From a virus: DNA of 64,000 bases. The position numbers and the translations under genes are program-made. Below are positions 2,401 through 49,500 of this stretch, piece by piece; positions within the stretch are counted from its first letter, which is position 1, and every line of letters starts with the position of its first letter. The DNA lies in the IMG/VR virus record IMGVR_UViG_3300020438_003185, positions 1 to 64,000 of that record, one strand, 5' to 3'. Under the pieces are notes generated by a model that worked only from the letters and a program-made list of their open reading frames with translations, had not been told where the DNA came from and ran no database searches.

Positions 2401-3867
2401 ATGGAAGAAAAACTTTTAGATATAGGTGCAGAACGTGCTGTTCTGGCTGGACTTTTACAAAACGGTGTTGATACATACGTAAACATATCAGATCTACTAT
2501 GTAGTGAGAGCTTTGTTAATCCTAATAATAAAATTATTTACAAATGCATAGAACATATTATAAGTAATGATCAAAAGCCAGATGTCGCCACGCTTTTAGC
2601 TGCTGCTGAACAGTTGAATTTCATAGAACAAATAAGTACTAAACAGGAGCTTAACTATATCAACTCTTTATATGAGTTTCCTGTTTCACAGGATAATATA
2701 TTTAGCTTTGCCGTACAGATGAAGAAATTTGAGTTTGCACGTAAGATAAAAAACCTTACAGTAAAAGTTCATAAAGACATGGACGATGTTAATGGATCAG
2801 AAAGCATTAACGAAATCATACAAAAGCTAGAAGATCCAGTAACAGATTTTTTGAGAGAAGACGATGGCGGTGAAAACCCAGAAAAAATAGGAGAAGGTAT
2901 AGAAGATTATGTCACATTCCTCGAAGAAAATAAATGCGATATCATTGGTATACCCACGGGATTCTCTAGATATGACCAAGCCATTGGGGGTGGTCTTAGA
3001 AGAAAATGCGTTGACCTTGTATCTGCAAGACCCAAAGTTGGTAAATCAGTGTTCGCTGATAATGTTGCCCTTAACGTATCTTCCACGGGAGTACCCGTAT
3101 TAGTATTAGATACCGAGATGTCTAAAGAAGACCATCTTAATAGACTAATTGCTAACATAAGCGGTGTGCCTATCAACGAAGTCGCCACGGGACAGTTTAT
3201 TGATGATCCTGTAAAGCACGATAAAGTAAAAGAAGCTGTTGCTAAAATAGAATCAATCCCTTACAGCTATATAAGTGTGGCTGGCAAGCCATTTGAAAAT
3301 ATTGTGAATCTTATAAGAAGATGGATAGTTCAGGAAGTTAAATCTGACGAGTCGGGTAAAACCAATGATTGTTTAATTATATATGATTATCTGAAGCTTA
3401 TGTCTTCTTCATCTATAACAAACAATATACAAGAGTATCAAGCTTTAGGGTTTCAAATCACTTCTTTGCATAACCTTTGTGTAAAGCTAGACATACCCTG
3501 TCTATCCTTTGTTCAATTAAATCGTGACGGTATAACAAAAGAAAGCACTGACGCAGTTAGCGGGTCTGATAGACTTGTTTGGCTATGCACATCTTTTAGT
3601 ATATTCAAATCTAAATCTACAGAAGAACTTGCTGAAGACGGTCCAAATGCTGGTAATAGAAAATTAGTACCTATTGTTTCTAGACACGGCGCTGGATTAG
3701 ATGATGGAGATTATATTAATATGCAAATGCAGGGCGCACACGCTAAACTTTTAGAACTGAAGACAAGAAATGAATTTAAAAATGCTCCTGTTGGCGACAC
3801 TGGATTAATTTCAGACATAGATAAGATTAAAGATGAACTTAAAGAAACTAAAGAAGACTCTGAATAA
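2401..3867 (+). CDS. dnaB: DnaB-like replicative helicase
   Basis: A 488-aa hexameric 5'-3' DNA helicase that unwinds the phage replication fork. The N-terminal DnaB domain (about 1-115, ERAVLAGLLQNG...) is complete, followed by a linker and a RecA-like ATPase. Walker A is SARPKVGKS near residues 208-216, LDTEMS follows, Walker B is DCLIIYDYLKLM, and CLSFVQLNRDG and GSDRLVWLCTS match later helicase motifs. The first Gly of the usual GRPxxGK loop is Ala, a mild deviation. Length is close to bacterial DnaB. The 3' end overlaps the primase gene by 35 bases, consistent with coordinated helicase and primase synthesis. No separate DnaC-type loader was recognised nearby. Confidence 0.95.
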   Translation: MEEKLLDIGAERAVLAGLLQNGVDTYVNISDLLCSESFVNPNNKIIYKCIEHIISNDQKPDVATLLAAAEQLNFIEQISTKQELNYINSLYEFPVSQDNIFSFAVQMKKFEFARKIKNLTVKVHKDMDDVNGSESINEIIQKLEDPVTDFLREDDGGENPEKIGEGIEDYVTFLEENKCDIIGIPTGFSRYDQAIGGGLRRKCVDLVSARPKVGKSVFADNVALNVSSTGVPVLVLDTEMSKEDHLNRLIANISGVPINEVATGQFIDDPVKHDKVKEAVAKIESIPYSYISVAGKPFENIVNLIRRWIVQEVKSDESGKTNDCLIIYDYLKLMSSSSITNNIQEYQALGFQITSLHNLCVKLDIPCLSFVQLNRDGITKESTDAVSGSDRLVWLCTSFSIFKSKSTEELAEDGPNAGNRKLVPIVSRHGAGLDDGDYINMQMQGAHAKLLELKTRNEFKNAPVGDTGLISDIDKIKDELKETKEDSE

Positions 3868-4855
3868 AAATATTGAAACTGTATTGCAGAAGCTTGGAAT
3901 AGAATACGAAGCTTTTAGTGATAATATATATTCAGTATGCCCATGTCACGAACATAGTGATAACCCAAGAGCTTTTTCTTATTCTATTGATAAAGGAATA
4001 TGGAAATGTTGGACTAGAGATTGTCAAAATGAATTTAACAATGACATATTTGGTTTAATAAAAGGTGCGTTATCGCAAAAAACTGGAACAGACCTTGAGT
4101 TTAAAGATGTATTAAAATGGGTATGTGAAGAATTTAAGATAGACAAAGGTAGTTACGAAGGATCTTCAACCCCTATAGAGCAAGAAGATGATTTTACAAA
4201 TTTAATTAAATCAATATCTATAAAGTCTAATACTAATTTTAATGACAAGGAAATAAATAATCCTTACTCAGTAGAATATCCCTCGGATTATTTCTTATCA
4301 AGAGGATTTAAAAAAACTACTTTAAAATATTTTAACGTGGGAGATTGTCATGATACAGGTATAATGAAAGAAAGGTCTATCATACCTATCCATGATGACT
4401 CTGGATATAAGCTAGTGGGAATGATTGGTAGAACAATGAAGGCGTATAGAATGCCAAAATTTTTGATATATCCATCTGGCTTTAATAAGCGTCACTATTT
4501 TTATAATTATCATAGGGCAATAGACAAAATCAAAGAAACTAATTGTTTATATATAGTAGAGGGTCAAGGAGACGTTTGGAAACTTCATGAGGCTGGAGTA
4601 AAGAATGCTGTTAGTATTTTTGGCAAAAGTATTTCCAAAGATCAAGAAAATAAGATAAAGAAATTACCCATAACAAGACTCGTAATACTCATGGACAATG
4701 ATCAAGCCGGGAGAGAGGCTAGAGTCCAAATACAAAGACAGTTTGGAAGAATGTATAGGCTTACATTTCCACATTTAAGCGATAAAGATGTTGGAGACAT
4801 GTCAGTATATAAGATTAAAAAAGATATTTTAAGCAATTTAAAAGGAACTTATTAA
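3833..4855 (+). CDS. dnaG: DnaG-like DNA primase (zinc finger + TOPRIM)
   Basis: A 340-aa primase that lays RNA primers at the fork. The N-terminal zinc-binding domain has CPCHEHSDNP and KCWTRDC (about residues 36-67). The central and C-terminal part holds a TOPRIM fold: YIVEGQGDVWKL (catalytic Glu near 243) and LVILMDNDQAGRE (D-x-D near 287). There is no C-terminal helicase domain, so it works with the separate DnaB gene just upstream. It is shorter than bacterial DnaG (about 580 aa), which is normal for phage primases. The start ATG lies inside the helicase gene, and the last base of the stop is the first base of the dNMP kinase start (TAATG). Confidence 0.92.
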   Translation: MNLKKLKKTLNKNIETVLQKLGIEYEAFSDNIYSVCPCHEHSDNPRAFSYSIDKGIWKCWTRDCQNEFNNDIFGLIKGALSQKTGTDLEFKDVLKWVCEEFKIDKGSYEGSSTPIEQEDDFTNLIKSISIKSNTNFNDKEINNPYSVEYPSDYFLSRGFKKTTLKYFNVGDCHDTGIMKERSIIPIHDDSGYKLVGMIGRTMKAYRMPKFLIYPSGFNKRHYFYNYHRAIDKIKETNCLYIVEGQGDVWKLHEAGVKNAVSIFGKSISKDQENKIKKLPITRLVILMDNDQAGREARVQIQRQFGRMYRLTFPHLSDKDVGDMSVYKIKKDILSNLKGTY

Positions 4856-9083: not shown

Positions 9084-9104
9084 ATTGACTTAGGAGATAG
9101 CTAA

Positions 9105-10670
9105 TTGAATTGGTTTCCATTGAAGAACTTTACGCATTATAGTTTATTAAAAGGCTTTTCCAAGCCACATGAATTAGCGAAGATGTGTGCTGATAAAGAC
9201 TACCCAGCTTGTGGTATTACAGATTACAAGTCTATATCTGGAGCGGTGTCTTTTCATCAAGCCTGTAAAAAAGTTGGAATCAAACCTATCATTGGCTGTT
9301 CATTTGATAGCACAACTGTATATGCCAAAAACAAAGATGGTTGGCACGATCTAATTCAGATGGTATCTATGACAGACGAAAATGGTAATATGCCTAAAGA
9401 CATAGCCAAGGATATAATTAGTAGAAATAACTTGGTTGCATTACAGAAGTCGAAAGATAATATCAAGCCTGCGTATTACGTAAAGAAAGAGCAGTCTGTT
9501 TTACATAGGGTATTATTATGCTCTGCCCTAAAAACTACTTTGCCTAAAATCAATACTAAAATTAGAAACAATAAGTTAGAGCCAGAAATTTTAGAATATT
9601 TTCAGAAAGATGACAAGTGTGTGATAGAAGGTAAAGTTACTAAAGAATTAGAGTATATATATAATTCGTGTGAAGAGTACGACATACTTAACCCTCCTAT
9701 GCTTCCAAACTTTGTATGTCCCAACGGAATGTCTCAAGAAGATTATTTAACACATATGGCAAGAACTGGTTATACAGAATTACTTAAGCCAAAAGTAGGA
9801 AAAGATAAAGACAAGCAGAAAATATACGGAGACAGGTTTCACAAAGAATTAGAAGTTATTAGAAATGCAGATCTATTTGGATACTTTTTAATTGTACAGG
9901 ATATAATTAGACACATAGAAAAGGATATGGGATGTTTAGCTGGTCCGGGCAGAGGTTCTGCTGCTGGATGTTTAATATCATATCTAGTAGGTATTACCAA
10001 GATAGATCCAGTAGAACACGATTTATTGTTTGAAAGATTTTATAATGCAGGACGCAATACTGGAGGTAATGTTTCTCTGCCAGATATAGACATGGATGTT
10101 CCGGGCAAGAGACGGGATGATGTTATAGATTATTTAAAAGACACATATGGACATGAGCATGTCAGTCAAATGATTACATTTGGAAGACTACAGGGGCGTA
10201 GCGCAATAAAAGAAGTTCTTAGAATAAATGAGGCTTGTTCTTTTAGTGAGATGAATGCTATAACAAAGAGTATACCTAACGAGGCAGACGTTTCCGATCA
10301 GCTTGCAGAAATGGACGATGAAGACAGGTCTATCATAAGATGGTCTTTGATTAATAGGGCAGATGATTTAAGAGATTTCTGCTATATAACAGATGATGGA
10401 AAACTTGAAGGTGATTATGCAGAATATTTTCAGCAAGCTATTGACATGGAGGGTACATTTAAGACTCAAGGTAAACATGCTGCTGGCGTAGTCATATCTA
10501 AAGACAAGTTAAAAGATGTCTGCCCCATGATACAACAGAAAGGTTCTACAGAAAAAATAGCAGGATTAGAAATGTCTGATCTAGAAGCACTAGGTCATGT
10601 AAAATTTGACGTTCTAGGAATTAATCTTCTAGATAAACTTATGAAAATAAAGGAACTAAAAAATGGCTAA
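9105..10670 (+). CDS. dnaE: DNA polymerase III alpha, N-terminal half (PHP + palm)
   Basis: A 521-aa protein corresponding to the first half of bacterial DnaE. Start is TTG at 9105 with AGGAGA 8 bases upstream. Residues about 10-70 form a PHP domain (YSLLKGFSKPHELAKM, GITDYKSISGAVSF, KPIIGC), but the HxH metal motif is missing and TDH is TDY, so it is likely inactive. The palm follows: GPGRGSAAGCL near 280, SLPDIDMDVP with catalytic Asp 327 and 329, TQGKHAAGVV, and VKFDVLG with the third catalytic Asp near 502. The gene stops just after this motif, where bacterial DnaE would continue into the fingers. It overlaps the exonuclease gene by 8 bases, and the missing half is encoded at 11333-12898. 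Confidence 0.93.
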   Translation: MNWFPLKNFTHYSLLKGFSKPHELAKMCADKDYPACGITDYKSISGAVSFHQACKKVGIKPIIGCSFDSTTVYAKNKDGWHDLIQMVSMTDENGNMPKDIAKDIISRNNLVALQKSKDNIKPAYYVKKEQSVLHRVLLCSALKTTLPKINTKIRNNKLEPEILEYFQKDDKCVIEGKVTKELEYIYNSCEEYDILNPPMLPNFVCPNGMSQEDYLTHMARTGYTELLKPKVGKDKDKQKIYGDRFHKELEVIRNADLFGYFLIVQDIIRHIEKDMGCLAGPGRGSAAGCLISYLVGITKIDPVEHDLLFERFYNAGRNTGGNVSLPDIDMDVPGKRRDDVIDYLKDTYGHEHVSQMITFGRLQGRSAIKEVLRINEACSFSEMNAITKSIPNEADVSDQLAEMDDEDRSIIRWSLINRADDLRDFCYITDDGKLEGDYAEYFQQAIDMEGTFKTQGKHAAGVVISKDKLKDVCPMIQQKGSTEKIAGLEMSDLEALGHVKFDVLGINLLDKLMKIKELKNG

Positions 10671-11343
10671 TAGAGACTATATTGTATTTGACTTTGAAAC
10701 TGGGAGTAGAAATCCTAATAAAACCCAACCTACACAAATTGCAGCAATTGCGCTAGACGGTCGTAACCTAGCTATGAAGGGGTCTTTCAACAGCGAGATT
10801 AAACCTATACTAGATGACGACAAAGCTATAGCCGCTGGACTAGATCCAATTGAAGATGGAGCTTTAAAAGTAACTGGTAAAAATAGAAAAGACTTAGCCA
10901 AAGCTCCAGCTCTAAAATCTGTATGGAAAAAGTTTTGTTCTTTTGTAGATCAATATAATTGGAAAAAAGATCCATTCTTTAATCCTATACCAGTAGGGTT
11001 TAACATCATTGGTTTTGACATGATTATTATTAATCGTTTGTGTAAAGAATATGGACCTTTTGACGATGGTAGGCAACAGCAAAAGATCTTTAGTAAGATT
11101 CATAAATGTGATGTCATGGACAATATGCACATGTGGACAGAGGGTGATCCTAGCATTAGATCAATTAGTATGGACACTCTACGTGAACGTATGGGATTGT
11201 CTACAGAAAATGCACATGATGCGCTGCAAGATGTTAAGGATACAGCTAATATATTCATAAAGCTATTGAAGACTCATAGAGCAGTATATCAAAACATTGA
11301 ACTGGACAAGGCGTTTGCAAACGGAAATTTGTATGTCAAATGA
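10663..11343 (+). CDS. dnaQ: DnaQ-like DEDDh 3'-5' exonuclease
   Basis: A 226-aa exonuclease. ExoI is VFDFETGS (Asp10, Glu12), ExoII is GFNIIGFDM (Asp near 119), and ExoIII is HDALQDV (His 185, Asp 190), which makes it the DEDDh type used for polymerase proofreading. ITMDTL-like (SISMDTLRERMG) and ENAHDALQD blocks match the epsilon family. The gene is wedged between the two polymerase halves, overlapping the first by 8 and the second by 11 bases. The three products are thus probably made together and assemble into one proofreading polymerase. There is no fusion to either half. Confidence 0.9.
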   Translation: MANRDYIVFDFETGSRNPNKTQPTQIAAIALDGRNLAMKGSFNSEIKPILDDDKAIAAGLDPIEDGALKVTGKNRKDLAKAPALKSVWKKFCSFVDQYNWKKDPFFNPIPVGFNIIGFDMIIINRLCKEYGPFDDGRQQQKIFSKIHKCDVMDNMHMWTEGDPSIRSISMDTLRERMGLSTENAHDALQDVKDTANIFIKLLKTHRAVYQNIELDKAFANGNLYVK

Positions 11344-12898
11344 ATATGACGATAAAGAAACTTGGAAGCTATTTGAAGAAGGTAAAACCAAGGGTGTCTT
11401 CCAGCTAGAAAGCAACCTTGGTAAGTCTTGGTCAAAAAAACTTTCTCCTCATAATATTGAAGAGTTGTCTGCACTCATCGCTATTATTAGACCGGGATGC
11501 TTAAAAGCTTTGGTAGATGGTAAATCTATGACCCAGCACTTTATTGACAGAAAGCACGGAAGAGAAGAGGTTACATACCTGCATGAATCTTTAGAAGAGA
11601 TTTTACTGCCCACATACGGAGTACTCGTATACCAAGAACAGTCTATGCGTATTGCACAAAAGGTGGCAGGATTTAACCTACAGGAAGCAGATGAGCTACG
11701 TAAAGCAATTGGCAAGAAAAAAGCGGACTTGATGGCTAAGGTTAAGACTAATTTTATCAAAGGTGTTAAAAAGGTAGGAATGGTTGATAAAGAAACAGGA
11801 GAAGAAATATTTAGTTGGATTGAAAAATCTTCTAGATATGCATTTAATAAGTCACATAGTATATCATATGCTGTATGTTCTTATTGGAGCGCTTACCAAA
11901 AGGCTCATAATACTAAAGAATTTTTCTTATCTTATCTATATTATGCTAACGAAAAACAAGATCCCCACCAAGAAATATACGAATTAATTTCTGAAGCCAA
12001 GCTATTCGATATAGAACCAAGAACACCAAGCGTTGCAAACTTTGACGTAAAGTTTAATATAAAGAAAAACAAGGTGTACTTTGGTATTAAAGATATCAAA
12101 TCTCTCACTGGTAAAACAGGGGACAAAGTGATAGATGCTATATCAGAAGCGGAAACTGAACTAAAGAAAAAGATAAATAAGTTTAATTGGATTGAAATAT
12201 TATTATTTTTCGCACCAAAGATGAGTTCTACCGCCTTCAAAGCTTTAGCATCTATAGGATTCTTTAGAGATTTTAACGGTAAGGTTTCTAGGAATAAAGC
12301 AATATATGATTATGATATATATAGGACGCTGACTAAGGCAGAGCAAAGCTGGATACAAAAAAAATATGAATCTAAAAAGTGGACAGACTTTATTGACTGC
12401 CTAAAAGATCTCTCGCCTACAAAAAAGAATGGCGGCGGTACAAGCAGGGTAGAAAGGCAGCAAATTGTTGAAAATGAAATACAACTCTTGGCAAACCCAC
12501 CGTATGATTTAAATGATGATCCATCTTGGATTATAGATCAAGAGACTAGGTATTTGGGATGTCCTATAACAATGTCCAAGATAGATACAGCTGATAAGTC
12601 CTCTGCCAATACTACATGTAAAGATATAGTCAATGGCAAGAACGGTAAAGGCATATGCGTGGTAGCAAATATACAACGCATGGCAGATTACACAATCAAA
12701 AAGGGCGACTCAAAGGGACAGGCCATGTCTTTTCTGACAATAGAAGATGACACATGTGTGCTAGACAGTGTGGTTATATTCCCCAAGGTTAAGCAAAAAT
12801 ACAAGTATGTATTATACGAAGGAAATAATCTTATGTTTTGCGGATCTGTAGGTAAAAAAGACTCTTCTTTGATTGTAGATAAAGTTCATGAAATTTAA
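11333..12898 (+). CDS. dnaE: DNA polymerase III alpha, C-terminal half (fingers to OB)
   Basis: A 521-aa protein beginning at ATG 11333 (MSNEYDDKETW), with GGAAA upstream and overlapping the exonuclease gene; an in-frame TTG at 11297 is less likely. It matches DnaE from the fingers on: WKLFEEGKTKGVFQLES (residues 11-27), LSALIAIIRPG, LPTYGVLVYQEQSMRIAQ, FNLQEADELRKAIGKKK, and SYRYAFNKSHS-like (SSRYAFNKSHSISYAVCSYW). A helix-hairpin-helix/beta-binding region and a C-terminal OB fold (AMSFLTIEDDTCVLDSVVIF) follow. All three catalytic aspartates are on the other gene, so this half cannot polymerise alone. Together the halves make 1042 aa, close to a full DnaE (about 1160). Confidence 0.92.
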   Translation: MSNEYDDKETWKLFEEGKTKGVFQLESNLGKSWSKKLSPHNIEELSALIAIIRPGCLKALVDGKSMTQHFIDRKHGREEVTYLHESLEEILLPTYGVLVYQEQSMRIAQKVAGFNLQEADELRKAIGKKKADLMAKVKTNFIKGVKKVGMVDKETGEEIFSWIEKSSRYAFNKSHSISYAVCSYWSAYQKAHNTKEFFLSYLYYANEKQDPHQEIYELISEAKLFDIEPRTPSVANFDVKFNIKKNKVYFGIKDIKSLTGKTGDKVIDAISEAETELKKKINKFNWIEILLFFAPKMSSTAFKALASIGFFRDFNGKVSRNKAIYDYDIYRTLTKAEQSWIQKKYESKKWTDFIDCLKDLSPTKKNGGGTSRVERQQIVENEIQLLANPPYDLNDDPSWIIDQETRYLGCPITMSKIDTADKSSANTTCKDIVNGKNGKGICVVANIQRMADYTIKKGDSKGQAMSFLTIEDDTCVLDSVVIFPKVKQKYKYVLYEGNNLMFCGSVGKKDSSLIVDKVHEI

Positions 12899-12946: not shown

Positions 12947-13252
12947 ATGAATAATTGTTGTTTTACAGGATACTTTACAGAAAACCCACAGACCTCTGTG
13001 GTAGACAATGTAGTATTAGCAGAGTTCGTTATAGTTACTTATAGCTATAGAAAAACAAAAAGTACTGGGGAAAAAAGTAAAATGCCAACGTACTTACACT
13101 GTGAAGCATGGCACACGGGTGCAGAAACGCTAGAAAGATTTGCTACAAAAGGCACGAAGATAACATTTAATGCTACTGCTAAAAATATATCAAGAGACGA
13201 CGAGAGTATAGTATTTAGAATAAACGAATTCGATTTGTGCATGGAGGAATAG
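12947..13252 (+). CDS. ssb: Single-stranded DNA-binding protein
   Basis: A 101-aa minimal OB-fold SSB. It starts with NNCCFTGYFTENP, has FVIVTYSYRKTKS, and the LHCEAWHTGAETLERFATKG segment that matches the conserved F.C.AWG..AE...... KG core of the SSB family. It lacks the acidic C-terminal tail used by bacterial SSB to recruit partners, ending right after FRINEFDLCMEE. It would coat single-stranded DNA at the phage fork. Ribosome site GATAGGAG lies upstream, and the gene ends 1 base before the first glycosyltransferase. Confidence 0.85.
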   Translation: MNNCCFTGYFTENPQTSVVDNVVLAEFVIVTYSYRKTKSTGEKSKMPTYLHCEAWHTGAETLERFATKGTKITFNATAKNISRDDESIVFRINEFDLCMEE

Positions 13253-32992: not shown

Positions 32993-35900
32993 TTATACTT
33001 GGAAGTGACCCTTAGTATGTAAAATCATTTCATCTACGCCGGATGCTGAAGTTTCAACGTGCATATTTAATGGATCGCCAGAATTATTGATACTCTCCAT
33101 TACACTTCCTGATATAGAAAGATTAAAAATATCATCTCCAGAATTATCGGCTATTCCTAAAACGCCAAAGGTATTCAACCTTAGTTCTATATCATTATAC
33201 ACATTTCCTATACCGGAAGGCTTAATGAGATTCATACTAGAAGACGTAGAAGGAGGCTTTCCGCTTATGAATAATCTATTATATCCTGCCAAAAATGTTC
33301 CAAAGTAATAAGCTCCATGAATTTGTTCGATAAATGGCCTGTGGGACACATATCCCTTTGGATTAGAATCTTGTCCTGAAGCTTCTACAAATATTTCACC
33401 CTTTTCGTTAGCATATACTATACCACCTTGATATAGATTGTTGTTTGTTTTTGTGCCGTTTTTGAAATCAAACAGAAGGTATTTTTCATGATCTTGTACG
33501 TTCATGCTTCCGAATATTCTGCCAGCTAAATTTGTGTCTGGATGAGAAAAGGAAGGAGCTTGTCTTCTAAGCATTGCGTCATAGTTGTAAACAGCTCCAC
33601 CAGAAGATAGTATTTGAGACGAGATTCCAGAACCATAAGAATGAGAAGGACTACCTACTACCAATGTATAATCTTGATCGGATCTAGCGTTTCTGTCTAG
33701 AGCAATAGATCTTCCAAAGAAATCATTTTCATTTACAGAGTTGTAACCTTGAGGTATAAGCTTCTGTATGTATACCCAATCTTGTCTCTTTGATCCCCAA
33801 TCAGAAATTTTATTTTCATAAGTGTAAACTGCTCCTTGATTGCCTGAGCCACCAATAGCAAAATCGTTTTTATCTATTTGTGTTATATCAAATTGATCAT
33901 TGAATTCTTTTCTAACAAATTCCCCAGAAGCTCCGACATCAGCCGTCTTTACTATGTTAGCAGTTCCATCATGAGATGGTGCTGAGATAACTAGAACATC
34001 ACCATCAACATCAAAAGACATGCCAAATTGATCGCCAGCATTTAATGTGTCTGGTCTAAATTTCCTAGTACACGACCAAGCCGTTTGAACTGACAAGTTG
34101 GTAACATTTGTTTGATTATAATCTCTAGTAAATTTATAAACAGATCCAGCGCCACCATTAGATCCTAAATCAGCATTTAATAAAGGTGTGTTTGGAGAGT
34201 TATTTACAACTTCATCCCAAGACGTAATGTTCTGTCCAGAGAAAGCAGCAAAAGGTGCAGAAACATAAACTTCACCTTTATGTATTTTTACCTTATATCC
34301 GAATAAGTCGCCCGGATAACCAGACATGTGAGGTTGCATTTCGTGGAAATCTAAAAAGTCATATCCAAATGTTTTCATTAAGGAGTTGCGACCTTCTCCA
34401 TAGCCATTGTCTTCATATGTTACGCCGTCAATATCAACCTTAAATCTACACCAAGTTCCCATAGAAACCATATCTCCAGAGAATGCAGATATTCTTCCAA
34501 GTCTGGCATTTTCTATGGCAACATCATCAATTGGTGGCATTGGACTTTTAAATGTCTGGTAGCTTGGCGCATTAGCCCTTGCTGGTTCAAGTGGAGCAAG
34601 CCAAGGTCTGCCCGGATAAGTCAGGGAAGCTTCATCATTACCAAACCGGCTCGGATCTTTAATAGAATTCTGAGTATAACCTCCAAAGAGATTATTAAAT
34701 CCACTATTAATTTCAGAACTCATTAATTTAGCAGGACTAGTTTTTTCTGGAGAAACAATTTTCAACATACTTTCATATCTTAAAGTTCCTCCATATTCAT
34801 CCTCGTAATAAACATCACTTTCTTCACTCCTATAATCCGCTGGATATAGACTTCTTAAGAACGATATAACATCTCCATTAATCCAATTCTCTCTGTCAGG
34901 AAGTCTAACATTACTTCCTTGAATTAGGCTGGCATCACTAATGACTGTAATTCTAGATTTTTCAGCACCAGTTAGGAAAGGTCTCTGATAATAAATTTCT
35001 TGTGCAGCTGTAACTGGTCCGTCTGCAAGCTCTGGGCCGGGAGTTCCAAAACCCTCTTCGCTACGACAAAAATCAGTTGGGCAATATTTACTGCTATCAG
35101 AACTAATTTCTTGTATTACTTCTCTAGTACTAATAGAAGCAGGAGTGCCTTCAGAAACTAACTCTGTTCTTGTGCTATAAATTGGTCGCTGTTGAGTTTT
35201 AGTGATAGTTCCTATCTTGACTCCAGATATACCTATCAATCTTTGAGTGAATATTGATTCTGGGTCAATTGTTTCTACGCCATAATTATCACCTTGTATG
35301 TATACAGATATACCAGAAGCGCCAGATGGAACAGTAAAGTCGAAATGATGCGTATAGTTTATTCCTCCATAATTTCCTATAGGCCAAACATCTATAGTAG
35401 ATGCTTCCTCTTGTGGCCCTTGTCGATACTGAGACTCACCTATGCTATATTTGGAGTCAATTGTGATATAACTATCTCCCCCGTAAACTAATGGATCTCT
35501 TAATTCTGACATTTCATTATTTAGCGGTGTTGTGATAATATTCGCAGCACCGTTGACATTGCTAACATAAACACCAAGAACTCGCTCTTCAGATCTACGT
35601 TCAGATGAAAAAGTTGTAAACATTCTATAAGTTTGTTCAGGTTCTACTGGGAAATCAATCCTCGCAGTACCTGTTCTCATAAAGGGGGTTCCAGTGTCAG
35701 CAGTTCTTTTATCAACAATTTTTGCATCGTAATATAGAAGAGTATTAACAGCGAAATTATTTTCAAAACAAACTGCCAAATATTTTTGAACAAACACATC
35801 GCTTACACTATTTAACTTAGAAAGTTCTCCTCTTTTACCTTCTATAAAGTTAGTATTAAAACGATTTATAACAAGGCCATCTATACGGCTACCTGTGCCA

Positions 35901-38900
35901 CGAGGTATACTCTGTAGAGGCAAGCTTGGAAGTCCTGTATCCTCCAATGTTGCATACTTATGTTTACTGTCTAAATACAAAGGTCTAATATTTGATCCTA
36001 GTTTAGACAAGGTGGTTTGTAACTTAGCTACTCTGCTGAAAATCTCTTCCCCCAAACTGTTATCCCAATTTTCATTGATGTCTCGACTCATACGTGGCCC
36101 AACAGTAATTACGATCTTTCTATTCTCTGCGCCATTAAGCCACAGTTTTAACTGTGCTGCTTCTTGGTCACTAGGAATATTGTCAGTATTTGCTATCCAT
36201 AAAACATCAAACTGAGAAGCTACTTGATTTATCTGTGACATCTGTACATTTTCAAATACTTCATAGTTTAATACCCACTGGAACGTGCTGGCAAGTCTAG
36301 ACTCATCATAACCATCAACAAAAGATGTTCGTTCCGTCCAACCACCCAGTTGTGCAACTCTAGTGTTTCCATTAGATGTTTTATCTAAAAGGTTCATATA
36401 GAAGATAACATTTGTGTCACCACCAGAAGATAGAGACCGTGAAGATTCAAACTCAGTTGTGGTCATAACAACTATCTTGGCAGTAGTATTTAGCAATTGT
36501 TCTTCCACGCAAATTGGAAATGTATCTTGAACTTCTACATTATAGTCTTCTGTTTCTTCCAATATTTCAGATCTTGCCATGAACAAGGCATTTTTATTAT
36601 TTTGTTCTAAAATTGGATTATCTTTATCAAAGAATAGACTATTAGATTCTGTTCCAAATTCATTATAATTCAAGTATGTATAGTTACCACTGTCATGCGT
36701 AATACCAAATTCTATTTCTGTATGCACATTGTTATCATCAAACTCAGGAAAATCAACAACAGTCTCATATCCAGATATATATTTTACTTGTCTATAACGG
36801 GGTCCAGTAGCTGGTATAACCTTTGTAATAATTTTCTTTTCTGCTGCTGCTAAAATAGGAATAGGTTCATAATTTTTCTTTGGATATTCTGGGCAAGGTA
36901 TAGCATCATCACAGCACCCACAGTTATAAGTCTCTGGAAGATTATGAGTACCATAAACTAAAGCAAGGTTAACTTTGAAATTAACTTTATTATTACGACA
37001 ATCAAAGCACTGATCTGACCACTCTGCTCTAAGGTCTCCTTCGTGTTTAATGACATGATTACATCTGTTATTAAGTTCAAAATAACCTTGCTGCTTACCG
37101 GCAGCTATAAGAGAAGCAAGTTCATCTAACCCTTGAAGTATATTGTCTACTTTAGGTTTGCTACAGCTATAACTTCTATAGATGTTTTCATCATACAATC
37201 TGATATCAGCAACCCCAGAGCCTCGCATATTTCCACCCGACACATACGTATAAGTAGTATTTGATGGTACAAAGGATGGTATATTGTTATAATATATACC
37301 CGTGTCTTGATCTACCATAGACTCATATCTACTAGCAGCTGGATATAACCTCATTCTAGAATCCAAGTTAGTCAAGAGCCTGTTAATAATAGAATTAGAA
37401 TTAAAGTATGCTCCACTTCTTCCGTATTGATCAGTTTCAAATACGGGATCATCACCCACTAATACAAGGTGTCTATCACCTAGCCCCAACCAATTTTGAA
37501 TGTTATCTATGTATTCTTTACTAAGCCTATCTATCTCTGGAGTGATTATAAATAGTAACCCAACTTCTGGTGGAATTTCTGGATCTTCAAATCCACTTTC
37601 TACATATCGTTCACTGCCATAAGTAGCTTTAAATAATTCATCATAGTATCTATCCAAGTGATTGTCAGCATCTTCAATAGTTAAATCTTTATCTGTCAAT
37701 AGATATTTACTTTTTTCTATAGATCTATGCAAGTTACCCCACGCTCCGAATTGCATAACTTTGTCATGCTCGAAATATTTTCTAGCCTGCAAAACTCTTA
37801 CAGCACCAGCATTAACGTTAGAAAACCATTGTTGTGGATCACTAGCCATTCGTCCCGGCTTATACCATAAAAGCCCTGCGTCAGTAGCGCCAATACTATC
37901 AGTTGGAGACCCTATAGCAAGTAAGGTTCCATCCTCATTTAAGTCCACGCTATAACCTAGTCTTGGATTAGGCATATACTTAGAAGTTAGCCAATTCCAA
38001 GAGTGATTAGGATTTATTTGAGAATCATTTATTTCTGTGGACAAGGAGTACCCTGTATACACATCATTGTAAGCAAGTCTGTAAGTGTATTGACCGCTAG
38101 GAGATAGGTTGTCATATACTTCCACGGCGGCTTGTCTTCGACCCGTAGCATTAATGGCAGTGCGTTTTTTGAACAAGTAAGAAGTTTTAGCTTCTCTTAA
38201 TTCTAAAACATCGCTGATTCCAACTCGTTGTACCCAATTTCCAAAATAATCGTAAAAATAATTGAAAGAACCATAACCATAAGATTGTTCATAAACTCTA
38301 ACTTGAGAGGACATGTATGGAGAACCTATTACTAAAGCACTACCGTCTTCGCTAATCGCTACATCATGACCAAATCTATCCACAGCAACAGCGCTGCTAG
38401 TAGTAGGGGAATCAATTCTCTGTATAGTTTTCCAACCATCGTCAAATTTTTCAAATACAAACACAGCTCCACCACTAGGAGGAGCTATATTAAATCCGGG
38501 TGTTGAAGGATTAAATGTACCAAAGTTAGATCCAGCAAATAATTTAAAATCTAGTGTTTCTATCAACCTGTTTATATTTAAAGTAGAATCTAATAAACTT
38601 ATAGCTTGACTAAACCAAACTTCTTTATTTTCAAAACGTCCTCCATCATCATCACTATCGGTTGTATCATCCCTGCCATCGTTACCGCCGATACTTGTAA
38701 CTATAGAAGGTCTAGCGGGTTGATTTAAATGATTTACCAACCCATTATCATAAGCTTCTTGAGAAACCCAACTCATAAATCTTTCTAATCCACCATCGCC
38801 TTCAATGGAAGTGTTGTTAGTAGAACCAACAGCCCTTGTGCCGTAAGATAACGATGTGTCTACAAAGAATCCAACTATAGCGGGCTGATTACTATTTTGT

Positions 38901-41900
38901 TTAGATGAGTCTTGGTAATAACGTTCATTATATATTTCCTTCAAGTCTGTAAATAATTGTTCATTTGTTCTTTCGATTTCAGAAGGAGTTGAGCCATATA
39001 CTCTATGAACTTGTTTTTTAAATATAAAATCTGGATCTTCAAGTTGAGCCTCTGACCAATCAGGACCAGCTGGTATATTAGTACCAAGTACTCCTTCGCA
39101 TATTATAATTTCTACATTAAAACGTATAGGAGGGTCGGAAAAGTATCTAAACATAAGATCTTTTTTCTCTATAACTGGCAATAAGTCATCAGGTATTGTA
39201 CTTCTGTTACGCCCCGAAAAGCTTCTAGGAAACGGAGAGCAAGGAATAAACTCATCAGTAAATACAAACAAAACTATATTAACTGGTTCTGGTTCAGCTG
39301 TTTCAAACGTTCTATTCCATTTAGCTCCCGGCGCTCCAGCAACTACAATCTCCTTACCATTATGTTTTGATATTGAAACTGAATGCCCTAACTCTCTACC
39401 CTTTTGTCCGACAGACCAAAATCTTTGGTATCCCGTTCCAAGAACTGTGTCAAACCTTCCTCCCGGCTCTCTATATTTTATTTCAATTGGTTCTTCTCTA
39501 TATGAATCCACCAAATAACCACTTGGTAAGGATAAATGTGACTCAAAGGACCAGCTAGATTGATCAGGCTGATCAGTCCAATCATTTCCGGTAGGAGCAG
39601 GATTTCTTCTGTATATGAAAACACTACCAGCATTAGGAACAAGAGAACCGTCATGTTCTACTAAATCATAATTAGGAACACCAACAGCCATTAAGTCGTC
39701 TACTACATCTACAGAATATCCAAACTTATCATTCAATGCTCTATCTGGATCTGGAGGAACAATTTTAATACCAGAATAATCTACTTCATCATTAGTCCCA
39801 TATCCCCATTCTGATATTTCTCTAGGTACATCTAATACTCCATCATCTCCAGTTTTAGCAGTTATAAATAAGCTGTAAGGACCGCCGGGGATAAGGTTTG
39901 TGTATTTTCTAACACCGTAATAATTATTATCATAACCACTACTAATAGTGTTAAATGCTGTTACATTAGGGTTGTTGTATACACGCTTAGGTCTAATCAC
40001 TCCACCGTTTACACAGTCTTGAGAGTACCACAGCGTATCGTGAGTAATAATGTCTGGTTCATCACAACCTTTATTGTTATCACATGATGAGTGACACATT
40101 GTGATAACGCCTCTAATTTCATCATCAGCTTCTAACGAAAGCAAATCATTATCTGCTAATACAATCTCACTTCCAGTATTTTGATCGTTCCAATTAAATG
40201 TCTGTAAATAATTTTCCCAGCCAAGTTGACCCACATTTAACGTGTGCAAAGACATCTGCCCACTAGATGTTACTATGCTAGGATCATACGCATTAACATA
40301 TAAATTAAATGTAGCATCAACAATTTCACCACCATACTCTGTTTCAATTCTGTCAATTTCTACATATAGATTGAATTTTTCTTTTTTACTTTTCGTCCTT
40401 CTTTGTGATGGACCAATACTTCCAGTACTTGCGTAACGACTGCCACCTCCAAACAAGTAAAGGTTACAATCTTGATTAAGTTGATTAGATTCATTTCCAG
40501 TAGAATCTATTCCACGTAAGAAAAAGTCTAGTTCTGATTCTGAATGATCATGATAAAATCTATCTTTGTTTAATAAAAATAGTGTACATCCCGTATCTTT
40601 ATAAAACGTAGGCGGCGGCGGCGGCGGTATAGTGGTAGATGTGGTTGCGTTTACCGATGGATCTGGTAAGCTGTATTCAATTGGGAACACTCCCTCTGGT
40701 GGAGTTGGCACAACTGTTTGCAAAATACCATCAACAAACGAAGATCTAGAAGCACCGAGTGTAACTCTTATATCATCTAGGTATATAGAATAATCTGGAT
40801 CTGATGGGTCGTCGTTATTATACGAACCTGTTCTCATGTCTGGGCAAATTTTAAACTCAGGATATATTGTGCTATAATTTCTTTCAAGAGCTTGTGACAA
40901 CAAGTAGTCTGGTTCTACAAGACTCTCTATGTCGGGCCACCCAAAATATGTTCCTTCACCAACGATAGCTCCATCTAATATAATATATACTTTATCTTCA
41001 GTAGCTGAAATTGCTACATGATGCCACTTATCATAATCAACAACTATGGGGGATACTATACGATGAGCGCGACATGTTTCCTCTAAATAATTATTAGAAA
41101 AATCATCATCTGTTCTTAAAGGAGCTTCTGGAAAAGTGCTAAAATAATCGAATGTAAACGAGTGCGTGTGCGATGGTACATAAGGTCCAGTAAATTCGAT
41201 AGCATTAAGATTAGAAGAGTCTGTAGCATTGTAATTAATTGAAAAACTCATGCCAGTTTCTATGGTATTAAAACCAATATTGTCTGCTCTATATCCAGTA
41301 CTATAGGACTGTTGATCTCTCAGTGTATACCAACGCTCTCGGGAGGATGATTTTTGATCACTTGAGTACAGGGCAGCACCAGCTGCACCAAACGTGTTGT
41401 AATTTCTACCAAAAATAGCTGAAGTAAACCAGTTTGTATTAGGTGCTGGTTTTGAAACTAATGATGATGGGTCTGGTATACGTAGGAAAAATTCTATAGT
41501 CCATTTAGAAGTCCAAAGTTTTGGATCTAAAGCTAAGGTCTTAAAGTTTGCTCCATAACGTGTTTGCGCTTCCCCTATGGTGGCGGCTGTTTGATCAAAC
41601 ACCCTAAGAGACCGTGTACCAAAATTACGATACAGATCACTAGTTGGTAATTTCTTTAAATAAGTTAATCCAGCAGCAGCAGCAAACCCTCCTCTAGTCA
41701 TGTTGCTACTACCATTATTTTTGCCACTAAGATCTCTTGATCCGGCATTAGCGTCTTCAAAATCAAGTAGCAAATTTACATAACTGCCAAGGTCATCTGT
41801 CTCTACTTCAGACGAGCCAAACAAAACAGGGTCGCTATTAAAAATAGCATTATCTTGTTGCTGCGGCGCACCAAAGAAACCTCCATTATTAGAACTAGAA

Positions 41901-44900
41901 TTTCCAAACCAAGACATAATTCCAATAGTATGTAAATTAAATTGTTCTGGGGGTTCTACTTTAATTCCAGTGACTGAATGAAAATACAAACCAAGGTGTG
42001 GATCTGGTAGATCATAATCATGGAAATCAGTTGAGTAAGTAGCTGAAGTATAAAGTGGTGGCCCGAAATAACCTACTCCACTTGAATCTATTTTTGTCCA
42101 AGGAAGACCAGCAGTATGTAAAGAAAGACCACTGGAAGGGGTATCAATTATTCCTTTCTCAGAGACAGAAAGATTCATCTGTCCAAAAGATATAGCTTCG
42201 CTAGTAACGTGAAGGTTAAAGTCGTCTATATAAGTAACGTCTTTTAGATGAAGAGCGTTTTCTAATCTTACGTGAGATGAGTGAATTCTAATTTTAGAGT
42301 CGTAAGACCCAGAAGGATATGCTAAGTCATATTGAACAAACATATCATTCATATCTTTAGAAGATAAATAGTGACCTCTTTGTTTTAAAATTTGTTGTCT
42401 ATCAAAATTAGCCCAAGGTTCTGTCTCAGTGTCTCTATAGCTATCTATAGTAAACTCACTAATTATTTTTTGCCAACAATCTCTTGGTCCAATATAATGT
42501 ATGTCCCTATTAAGCAGACCCCAATTCTCGCTGTCAAACAAGTCTGTTTCTTTTGTCTTGGTATACAAACTAACAATAAGTCTTGGTCCCACTTTTCCAT
42601 CGGGCCACGTAATGTCATTAGTTGTTTCATGCTCAACAACCGTGTCTACCGCAATGGCATCTTTTGCAAAATTGTAGCCATTTGGCAAGGCTTTAGAAAT
42701 TCTTGGAGCTACTGACAACATCTTGTCTGAAGTGTCTGAGAGATGCATTCTGAACATATCGTTTTCAAGCTGGGTATGATATGCTAGTCCAGACGTAACA
42801 ATATCGTTTGGAAGGGCGAGCTGAGTATTATCCTCGTAGCTGCCACCGTCAGTCTTGAAATTGTGAACAATATAATCGTTTCCTATTTTCCTTGTAAGCG
42901 TGTCATAATCTGGGCCAAATTCACAATATTTAAATGCTCCTATGTGCCACTTGTTAGAATCTTCATCTACAAAATCCCACAATTTATATCTATCATTTTT
43001 ATATGATTCGCCATCATTCCAGAACTTAGATCTAAAAGAATCAAAGAATCTTTCAGCTGTGGTTTGTTGTTTAGACGCATCTGCAACATCTCCATTTACT
43101 AATATAGATCCGTAAGTAATATCTTCAGAAACACCTACGTCTGTAACAAACGCATTCATACCAATGCCAGATCCGTATGAATGACCAAGTATTAAATCAC
43201 TGTCTCCACTAGCCATTGTAAATGGTTGTGAAGAACTTCTAAGTATATCAAAACTTCCACTGTTTATAATTTCATTATCTGTGTATAACCTTAAACGTTT
43301 AGAATCATTGTCATTATAAGTAAGCAATACTGGTACTGGGTATTGATAGTCTGTATAAGTTAATGTATCTTTAACTTCTATATTATTACCATTAATATCT
43401 CTAGCGTAACCAACAATATGACCATCTTTATAACCAATTGCTAGTTCTAAATCTTTTCCAGAATCCCACTTAGATAAAATAACACCATTATTAAACAAGT
43501 TATAATCAGCGCCGCTAACGTCAACGTCTGGGGAAAATCTTGTGAATAAAGAAAAACCGCCAGAGCATTCTATGTTACCAAAATTAACATTGGCATTAGA
43601 CTGTTTGACTCTTAAAGCGTTTTCAAAAGAGTCAGTTATCTTTCCATGTAATTCGTGACCAGAAGATGTCCAATCAATAGTAGTGTACGATCTTTCTTGA
43701 GAAGAGAACAGGTGGTCTGTTCTGAATCTAAAACCTACACTGTTAATAATATTATTAGAAAGCAGGCCATTAAATATTCCACTATTTGTTGTAGAACTAT
43801 CATCAGGATATATAGTATTATCTTCTGTATTTCTAAAGGTATAGTAACCATTAATGAAAGGTTTTTCCAACTGCGGATTATAAAAGCTTTCATCAAAAGC
43901 GGGAGGATCAAACGGTCCTGATCTAGACACGCCATCTACACCTCTCCACCTCTTGGAATAATTAGTTTTGATTGTGTCAGGTGTTTTAAATCCATGAGGT
44001 ATATTCTCAATTAAAGACAAAGGCTTTGAGCCTACAACAGCGTTTAACTTATGATCATACTCTCCCATAGCAGCTGCAAATAATCCATTGGACCTTCTAG
44101 AGATTTCTATACCTCCGTGTCCAAAGGTGTGTAACTGCATAGCTGCGGAAGGTCTATACTTTATTATCAGTTCTGCTTTTGCTATAACAGCGCCAACAGG
44201 AAGGGGATAAATATCAAGATGTAAAGCCTCGAAGAATGGAGATATATTATATGTATCTGGAGTTCCTAGCTCATTAAGCTTAGGACTAATTTGCAAAGGA
44301 ACGATGTATTGACTGTACTCTGTACTGTCTACCATAGAAGGTGTTCTAACTTCATCTCCATTTTCGTCTTCACCAATTTTGAGTACTGAAGCTGTAATTA
44401 AATGATGATCACCTCCGGGGTTGTTAGCAACTAATCTGTTTTCAAAATATTCATCTCTAGAAGATATAGCTTCAGAAGATCTAGCTAGATAATTTGAATT
44501 ATCAAAACCAGAAGAAACTGGTATAGTACCAACGCCAGTGGTAGAATTTTGCAAGAAACCATCAACAGCAGACGTAACGTTGAAAAGACCGTCATCGCAA
44601 TATCCTACAACGTCCAAAGTAAAATCTCTTGTAGAAGTAGAAGATTTTTTAGCTAGAACTTTTAACTCTATAGATTCTATTGTATAGAATTCTTGTTCTA
44701 CCTTTTCAACACTAGACTTAGCAAGATCTAAATTACTATCTAGTCTGAGCTTCCCAATACTGAATGCGCCACCTGATTTTTGCACAACTCTTGTAGATGG
44801 TTGATGAGAATATACAATTTGTAACTTACCAGAATCTGCAATTGGAGATGTCGAAATAAGCTCTATGGACCTAAAGCTAACAAAATCATTAAGCGATTTA

Positions 44901-46569: not shown

Positions 46570-49500
46570 TTATCCCATCTTACTATCAGTTTGTCTTGGA
46601 CTTCCATCAGGATTACGAGATGTCTTGCTTAATTCTTCGACAACCTTCTGTTTGACGACATTTCCCATAAGGTTTTCTAAACGAGCTAGTATGCCACCGT
46701 CATTTATATTTACACTTACATTAGTATTATCTAAAGTAATTTTTATTGAAGTATTTTCTAGTCTATCTATATTGGCAGATAAATCAGTGTTAAACTTACT
46801 AAGAGCAGAACTAAACCTTTCCATAACTTCTGGGTCTAATCCAGCTCCAGAAGCTACACCAGCTTGAGCTTCTGCTGCTCGTTGAGTTGGAGCAGCTACA
46901 GATGTACTAGTTGATGGACTTTTAGATTGTTGTTCTTTAACTTCTTTGGTTTCTTTAGCAACTTCCTTAGTAGCTTCAGCAGCTTGTTTTTGAGACTCAG
47001 CTTGGCTTTCTGTTGCACTGGTAGCTTCTGGCGTAGACGCTGCTTGATCTTTCTCGGCCTGTCTGATTGCTAATTGTTCTTTAACGCCCTTGTCAAAGTC
47101 ACTTGATTCACCACTACCATAGAAGTAGCTCTCTCTATTTCTTGTGTCTTGTCTACCCTTAATGTCTGTATCAATCATTTGCTGTTCTTGCTCTTTAACA
47201 TCTTTCATGCTAGCATCTTTGCCATAAGTATTGGTAAAGTCTTCTTCTGACATGCCAGTACTACTTAAGAATTTAGAACGATCTCCTCCAGCTGCATTCG
47301 CCTCATTCCTTCTGAAAAGCATATTAGCTCTTTGGTTAGCTGCTGACTTATCTAATGCTCCTAACTTCTCAAAACTTTCTGTTCCACCCTCTAATCCAAC
47401 AGCCGCTGCACGTTTATTAGATGTTTCGCTCATGCTTGCAGAAGTTCTCTCTTCTGCTGCTGCAACGTCTAGCGAAGATTTTACAAGAGTTACCAAATCC
47501 CCAGCACCACCAACTATATTATAGAAACCTTCTACAATTTTTCCTACAGGATTTAAGAATCCTTCTAGACCACCAAGAACTGTGGCAAGAGCAGCATCAA
47601 ACTGAGTGCCAGTTTTTAAGAATCCTACTCCCCAACTGTCCATCATACCGCCAAAGTCTCTTCCGGTCTTTTCCTTTTTATCTTCATGGTAAGCTTTAGG
47701 ATCAGATATAAAGGAACCCGCTTCCATAATTCCATCAAGAGCAGTTCCAAGTCCCGGTATACCCTTGGCTCCACTAGAAGCCATCTTTCCAAGCATCGGA
47801 AGTTTTGACAGACTCTTCATAATTGATGGACCAATTTTATCTAATCCGGGGATCTTCATCTTACTAAGATTACCCATTTTTGATCCCACGAATTCTGTTC
47901 CTTGTTGGAGCATTTTCTTTCCACTTTGTAGCATACCCGGAGCATTCTTTTGTAAATACTGTGATGAAGCATTCATCATTTGCGGAGCAGTATTTTGGAA
48001 GAAATTTTTACCCGCGCCAATGGCATTGCGACCCTTTTGCATCAAGCCGGGAGCATTCTTTTCTGCCATTTCCATCAAGCCGCCACCCATATTGCCTGCC
48101 ATATTTCTTGCACCACCTAAGAAATTAGATCCTTTCTGATAAAGATTAGAACCAAATTGAGCTGCTTTTTGTCCGAATTGACTTTGACCAACTTTTCTCA
48201 TAGTTTGACCAGCAAAATTACTGGCTCTATTCACAACCCCCGGTTTTCCACTACGAGACATACCTTCAAGACCATAGCCATGTTTACCAACTCCAAATGA
48301 AGTCGCCATGTCACCAAAGAAACTACCAGCTTTATTCTTGCCAGCATTCAATAAATTTTGACCCCTTTTCATCATGCTAGGAGCAAAGTCATCTCCGTAA
48401 GAAGCTTGATTTAATCTTTCAAACATTCCTCCAGCTTTCTGCATAATACCAGCTGGTCTAGGAACATTGTCCACACCTCCCATAACACTTCTAGTTAAAG
48501 ATCTACCAGCAGTAAAGTTTTTGCCTATTCCTGTTTGACCAATTCTTGAGCCAACTCTAGAAAGTATCTCTCCACCTTCTGTTCCTATCCTTGAAGCAAG
48601 GTTTCCAGCACCTCCACTTTGCACAAAGTTTTTGCCCATACCAATAGCATTCTTAGCCATGTTGCCAGCGTTTGCTACAGCGCCACCGCCCATGCCAAAT
48701 ATGCCCTTGATTGCACCTATGATGCCACCACCGCCTGCACCACCCGCACCACCCGCACCGTCTTTAGCACCTGTACTAGCTGCGTCACCACTTTCAGAAA
48801 CTTTATCAGTATTAATATTAGCAACTTTAGTATTAACTTCAGCAGTATTTTTAGCTTCTTCTCCTGCATTCATAGCTTCCTTAGTACGTAGTACCGCAGC
48901 GTCATATTGCTTTTGAGCTGCATCTTCTTGTTTCTGAGCTATCTCAAGGTCTCTTGCCGCAGCATCAACCATAGCCTTGCCTAAGTCTGGTAGTACTCCC
49001 GCCAACTCTCTAATCTCAGATTCTTTAGCAGCTTCTTCATTTGTTGATCCCGCAGCAATCTTAGCTAGATCAGGAGCATCGACTCCCATAGCTCCAAAAG
49101 ATGCACCAAAGGATCTTTCAGTTAAGCCATCGGGACCGCTAAGTTTTTGACCATACAAACTATCTACGCCAGATTCTTGAAGCCTTCTGTTTTCTTGAGC
49201 CGCCATACCTAAAGCTTGAGGGCCGAACTGGTTCATTAAGCTCTTATCACCAGTAGCAATAGCGGCTTGAGCGCCAGCAGTACCCATCTTATCAAAGAAC
49301 GCCTCATCATCTCCAGCAATCAAAGCGTCAGCAGCGGCCTTTTCGTTAGCATTCTTCTCTTTAATAATTGAAAGTTCTTGTTTTCTAATATCAATAGCGG
49401 CTTTAATACTGTTGTATTCTTCTTTTAGGGCCGAATCTATTCTGCCCAGCTCGTCACTCATCTCTACGCCAGATTTACCCCGTGCCTGTTCATTGCTCTT

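Follow-up and report, generated by a model that had tools for sequence, protein, structure and literature searches.

Split phage polymerases are already known. The group 2.2 jumbo phages encode a Pol III alpha subunit as two proteins, made without splicing, that are proposed to reconstitute the enzyme (Iyer et al., 2021; PMC7824862); this alpha is minimal, its two genes are distant from each other, and a PolB replicase is encoded alongside (PMC7824862). In Aeromonas phages 44RR and 25 the T4-like polymerase is split into gp43A and gp43B, which co-purify and polymerise, and phage Aeh1 has a split NrdA with full activity (PMC2988022). Like the locus considered here, these are essential phage enzymes in two genes, and they are precedents for non-covalent reassembly; however, gp43A/gp43B is a family B polymerase and NrdA a reductase, and a homing endonuclease or an untranslated spacer lies between the parts, not the enzyme's own partner.

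Related arrangements are found in other phages and in cyanobacteria. Cellulophaga phage phiST (Cbastvirus) likewise has alpha in two adjacent genes (gp044/gp045), but the break is just before the catalytic PDID motif with nothing between the genes, and a DEDDh exonuclease (gp035) is encoded 4.6 kb upstream. In Pbunavirus (Pseudomonas phage steven) the epsilon and alpha genes touch, but epsilon comes upstream of an alpha gene that is not split. Cyanobacterial DnaE is also encoded by two genes, but its parts are joined by protein trans-splicing at the split-intein site, the fingers motif FNKSHS.

The locus described here was found in the window, which is the whole 64-kb stretch of viral DNA that was analysed. 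In contrast to the jumbo phage enzyme, its alpha is near full-length, with PHP, HhH, and OB regions, and its genes are adjacent around an exonuclease gene; no PolB was found in 12 records of the family. No description of this exact order (N-terminal half, exonuclease, C-terminal half; N-exo-C below) was found in the literature searched, nor of a break at the palm/fingers border with the gene for the proofreader fixed in the gap. Two reports of a "split DNA polymerase", from MIJ3 (PMC6892783) and from OM43 phages (PMC10580990), were set aside as other cases; that of MIJ3 is a PolB with an intein.

Organization of the locus and position of the break

In the window, the alpha subunit of DNA polymerase III is encoded by two ORFs with an exonuclease ORF between them, all on one strand (Table 1). 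A sequence-only reading of the window had proposed two polymerase genes around a DnaQ-like gene with short overlaps on both sides, and the ORF calls, domain content, and overlaps bear this out. The polymerase block shares a replication cassette with the helicase and primase genes upstream, where a dNMP kinase gene also lies.

Table 1. Features of the polymerase locus and neighbouring replication genes in the window.
Feature	Position	Strand	Details or basis
DnaB-like replicative helicase, common replication cassette	2401..3867	+	phrog_19, E 4e-57
DNA primase, common replication cassette	3833..4855	+	phrog_47, E 5e-46
Putative Shine-Dalgarno AGGAG of N-half	9093..9097	+	sequence
N-half of DNA polymerase III alpha	9105..10670	+	521 aa; PHP (trimmed, without metal ligands), palm, thumb
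8-nt overlap, N-half stop with exonuclease start	10663..10670	+	sequence
DnaQ/epsilon-like DEDDh 3'-5' exonuclease	10663..11343	+	226 aa; Pfam RNase_T, phrog_192
11-nt overlap, exonuclease stop with C-half ATG, letters ATGTCAAATGA	11333..11343	+	sequence
C-half of DNA polymerase III alpha	11333..12898	+	521 aa; fingers, HhH region, OB fold
Single-strand DNA-binding protein, directly downstream of C-half	12947..13252	+	phrog_44, E 7e-6

The N-half starts with TTG at 9105, about 8 nt downstream of AGGAG, and the exonuclease start is preceded by an AAGGA box. The C-half most likely starts at the ATG at 11333 and not at the mechanically called TTG at 11297, because the methionine encoded by this ATG is nearly invariant in 20 relatives. 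These two putative ribosome-binding boxes, and the overlap of the C-half start with the exonuclease stop, make it likely that the three genes of the window are translated in order and in a coupled manner. Elsewhere in the window, two very long ORFs on the - strand (32993-46564 and 46570-54480; 4523 and 2636 aa) probably encode structural proteins.

Together the halves contain what defines a C-family, DnaE-type alpha, distributed over two ORFs in the window and in at least 245 distinct relatives. The N-half matches the Pfam families PHP (7.7e-17) and DNA_pol3_alpha (2.7e-68) and holds the whole catalytic Asp triad (PDIDMD, VKFDVLG), and the C-half matches DNA_pol3_finger (8.2e-49). Each is predicted to fold confidently alone (AlphaFold pLDDT 88.3 for the N-half and 90.9 for the C-half); by Foldseek, the N-half model matches the solved Pol III alpha structure 2hnh (E 3e-31, TM 0.71 of query) and the C-half model matches 4iqj and 2hpi (E about 1e-20). 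In the C-half, no motif could be clearly recognised as clamp-binding.

The two halves align to complementary parts of unsplit enzymes. In phrog_405, a family of single full-length phage polymerases, the alignment to the N-half stops at position 613 and that to the C-half starts at 627; on E. coli alpha, to which the sequence-only reading had suggested aligning them, the N-half ends near residue 574 and the C-half begins near 587. That reading had placed the end of the N-terminal gene just after the third catalytic Asp and the resumption near GVFQLES, and the measured distances agree: 19 residues separate the Asp of VKFDVLG from the N-half stop, and 22 lie between the C-half start and FQLES. 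Since the interval from the third Asp to FQLES is 51-53 residues in three unsplit enzymes, the loss is confined to a loop of about 10-12 residues; apart from this loop, both halves are complete as judged by alignment. The motif FNKSHS is intact within the C-half, so, as the sequence-only reading had claimed, the break is not at the cyanobacterial site; nor do the termini carry IntN and IntC sequences of the cyanobacterial type. The palm of M. tuberculosis DnaE1 extends to residue 591 and the fingers follow from 592, with D587 as the third catalytic Asp (PMC5636811), which places the break just past the palm/fingers border.

Conservation of the arrangement

The search for the same gene order elsewhere was made in IMG/VR; each scan returned its best 80 loci, so the totals are lower bounds. 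At least about 390 loci had halves complete enough to judge, and all have N-half, exonuclease, and C-half in this order as separate ORFs; the exonuclease is present in every complete locus, always between the halves. No fused member was seen among the roughly 390 loci listed in these scans. After removal of duplicates, at least 245 distinct N-exo-C blocks from independent metagenomes remain. Outside the family, both halves are in one ORF in 91 of the 92 phage and bacterial records examined.

In a quick tree of the joined N and C columns, which has two long outside branches (phiST and Pbunavirus), the split family forms a single clade, its 34 representatives being separated from all 14 outside enzymes, phiST included, by a branch with SH-aLRT 100. 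The order has persisted through divergence of the family to about 40-50% protein identity, with a maximum divergence of 63% for the N-half and 69% for the C-half. The three Asp residues of the palm triad are found in 234, 234, and 235 of 235 distinct members, the missing cells being gaps. Against the close relative L001, dN/dS is 0.036 for the N-half, 0.017 for the exonuclease, and 0.059 for the C-half, which indicates strong purifying selection on all three genes. Distance matrices for the three proteins correlate with r of 0.86-0.89 (permutation maximum about 0.10), values that plain linkage alone could give. Two observations that had been named as contrary to a split enzyme, a close relative with one uninterrupted gene and expression of one half only, were thus not encountered: no locus listed is fused, and both halves evolve under constraint.

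Searches among cultured phages and other genomes returned distant matches. A DNA search of 50,697 phage records for a close cultured relative gave at best 70% identity over 196 bases (Cellulophaga phages). Protein searches found fused enzymes at about 28-34% identity, and also nine remote exonucleases; three of the latter were inspected, none of them beside alpha halves. In a genome scan, identity was about 30% for the best-scoring matches, rising to 38% over shorter segments, and these records are fused. The loci of Bacteroides phage SJC03 and Chryseobacterium MA9V-3 were considered as relatives and rejected, as they contain a relative of the exonuclease only. The N-exo-C order is a marker for this large uncultured phage family.

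Each of 12 long records (64-174 kb) encodes a single Pol III alpha N-half, and neither PolA, PolB, nor a bacterial-type beta clamp was found in these records, which may be incomplete. The split alpha would appear to be the only recognisable DNA polymerase of the phage family, and the clamp is presumably supplied by the host.

The exonuclease of the window matches Pfam RNase_T (PF00929, 7.9e-13) and phrog_192, "DNA polymerase exonuclease subunit", and has the fold and the DEDDh residues (D10, E12, D119, H185, and D190) of a DnaQ/epsilon-type enzyme; all five residues are invariant in 235 of 235 distinct members. A conserved C-terminal tail (about residues 206-226) extends beyond the nuclease domain. 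The metal ligands of the PHP domain (N-half residues 1-190), scored at eight positions, have a bimodal distribution: all are kept in 110 of the 235 members and all are lost in 87, the latter group including the window, in which the PHP domain is also trimmed. Because DEDDh never varies while the PHP ligands are kept or lost, the middle gene is likely to encode the proofreader. A PHP site that is either fully kept or fully lost beside an unvarying DEDDh site makes the respective shares of PHP and epsilon in proofreading testable.

Probable assembly of the two chains and proposed role of the exonuclease

Very probably, alpha works here as two chains that assemble without protein splicing, together with an epsilon-like proofreader that is translated alongside them. 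The sequence-only reading had also favoured a two-chain enzyme, and the conserved order, intact catalytic residues, purifying selection, and lack of PolA or PolB in the 12 records support it. The phage's own Pol III core would consist of three translationally coupled genes, with ribosomes translating N-half, exonuclease, and C-half successively on a single message; the alpha chains would dock through the native palm/fingers interface, with no peptide ligation, to form one active polymerase, and the exonuclease would join it as an epsilon-like proofreader, in place of a PHP domain whose metal ligands have been lost. We infer physical assembly, activity, and co-translation from the conservation of the genes; binding of the exonuclease to alpha and its proofreading role are suggested by its fixed position and co-inheritance. 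The split would have arisen once, early in the phage family, and then been kept; the exonuclease may have entered at an existing break, or the break may have arisen with the gene insertion. A bacterial-type replicative polymerase, one chain in 91 of the 92 records examined outside the family, would then be able to serve an entire phage lineage as a pair of chains divided at a domain boundary. For C-family polymerases the locus offers a natural place to split the enzyme, and it permits a clean test of how proofreader and polymerase assemble.

A decayed or mis-assembled polymerase, whether from sequencing or assembly error or from a gene being lost, is conceivable for a 64-kb metagenomic fragment, but its probability is negligible and it is already refuted at the sequence level by the distinct blocks with open frames in independent metagenomes, by the invariant catalytic residues, and by the low dN/dS in all three genes. 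It is very improbable that the halves are rejoined, whether through protein trans-splicing, through translational bypass, or through a self-splicing intron that carries the exonuclease gene. Split inteins do occur in the same gene of four relatives (L072, L073, L074, and L245), though at GPGRG^SAAG inside the N-half, and their presence there underlines their absence at the palm/fingers break: the chain termini read in the window and in relatives have no intein sequence at this break, as the earlier reading had noted for the junction in the window. No Rfam intron was found at the junction, the overlapping genes of the window leave no non-coding room for one, and stops and starts are conserved on both sides in hundreds of relatives.

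The remaining alternatives accept a functional two-chain polymerase and concern the exonuclease. As a mere resident of an insertion-prone junction, it would serve other processes, such as recombination or the turnover of host DNA; unrelated genes do come and go at both of its junctions, but the exonuclease is the sole gene found in every complete locus, its family is annotated as a polymerase exonuclease subunit, Pbunavirus has epsilon directly upstream of an unsplit alpha, and the PHP ligands are lost in the window's branch, so this reading is improbable. Somewhat less improbable, though still unlikely, is that the exonuclease has an obligate structural role, bridging the two alpha chains or acting as their chaperone; if so, the core would have three chains, assembly would need the proofreader, and a polymerase without a proofreader could not form. 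The presumed proofreader is retained in the gap while unrelated genes enter and leave around it.

Inserted genes and further breaks in relatives

The junctions are looser in many relatives than in the window. N-half and exonuclease overlap in 59 of the 245 blocks and have more than 150 nt between them in 173, and exonuclease and C-half overlap in 109 of 245; many relatives carry other genes between the three, and tight translational coupling is therefore not universal but helpful at most, not a defining feature. Both junctions gain and lose ORFs (e.g., L041, L009, L097, and L016), which are endonuclease VII-like, methyltransferase-like, glycosyltransferase-like, or uracil-DNA glycosylase-like; the endonuclease VII assignment rests on a Pfam test, the other types on a reading of the sequence. 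The endonuclease VII-like ORFs are located between exonuclease and C-half in a subset of relatives. A homing endonuclease as the cause of the split was considered and rejected, there being no such gene in the window's break, where the exonuclease is the sole insert.

A conserved ORF of 70-90 aa is located between N-half and exonuclease in 115 of the 391 loci with complete N-half, exonuclease, and C-half (e.g., L103:7083-7301); it has no Pfam match, never occurs elsewhere in the loci searched, and is absent from the window. It is possible that it encodes an extra small subunit.

Fractured genes with split inteins were reportedly described by Dassa and colleagues in 2009 (cited in PMC10448857), and the same arrangement is seen in the N-half of the four relatives with split inteins, whose alpha is encoded by three genes; this is a second, separate break that is absent from the window. 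The split inteins (L072:8830-9250; L073/L074:6800-8000; L245:5900-6380) have an IntN beginning CFLPDTRV or CFVPETNI and an IntC ending VHN^S. When joined, the two intein halves of L072 match the NrdJ-1 and Npu DnaE inteins, and L073 and L074 have a TnsA/restriction-endonuclease-like ORF between IntN and IntC.

Other disruptions are found in single loci. The N-half is broken or disrupted close to the PDID motif, where phiST (L159) is split, in L075 (9047-9349) and L246 (4436-4467), the latter seemingly without the PDID motif and possibly an assembly error. In L205 (10515-14106) the C-half gene is interrupted twice, possibly by inserted genes or introns. The break closest to one caused by a homing endonuclease is in Alicyclobacillus phage MMB025 (L160), where an endonuclease-annotated ORF breaks alpha inside the fingers. 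In three distant members (L143, L250, and L263) the C-half carries an N-terminal extension rich in Cys (CGC...C), which may form a small metal site at this new terminus.
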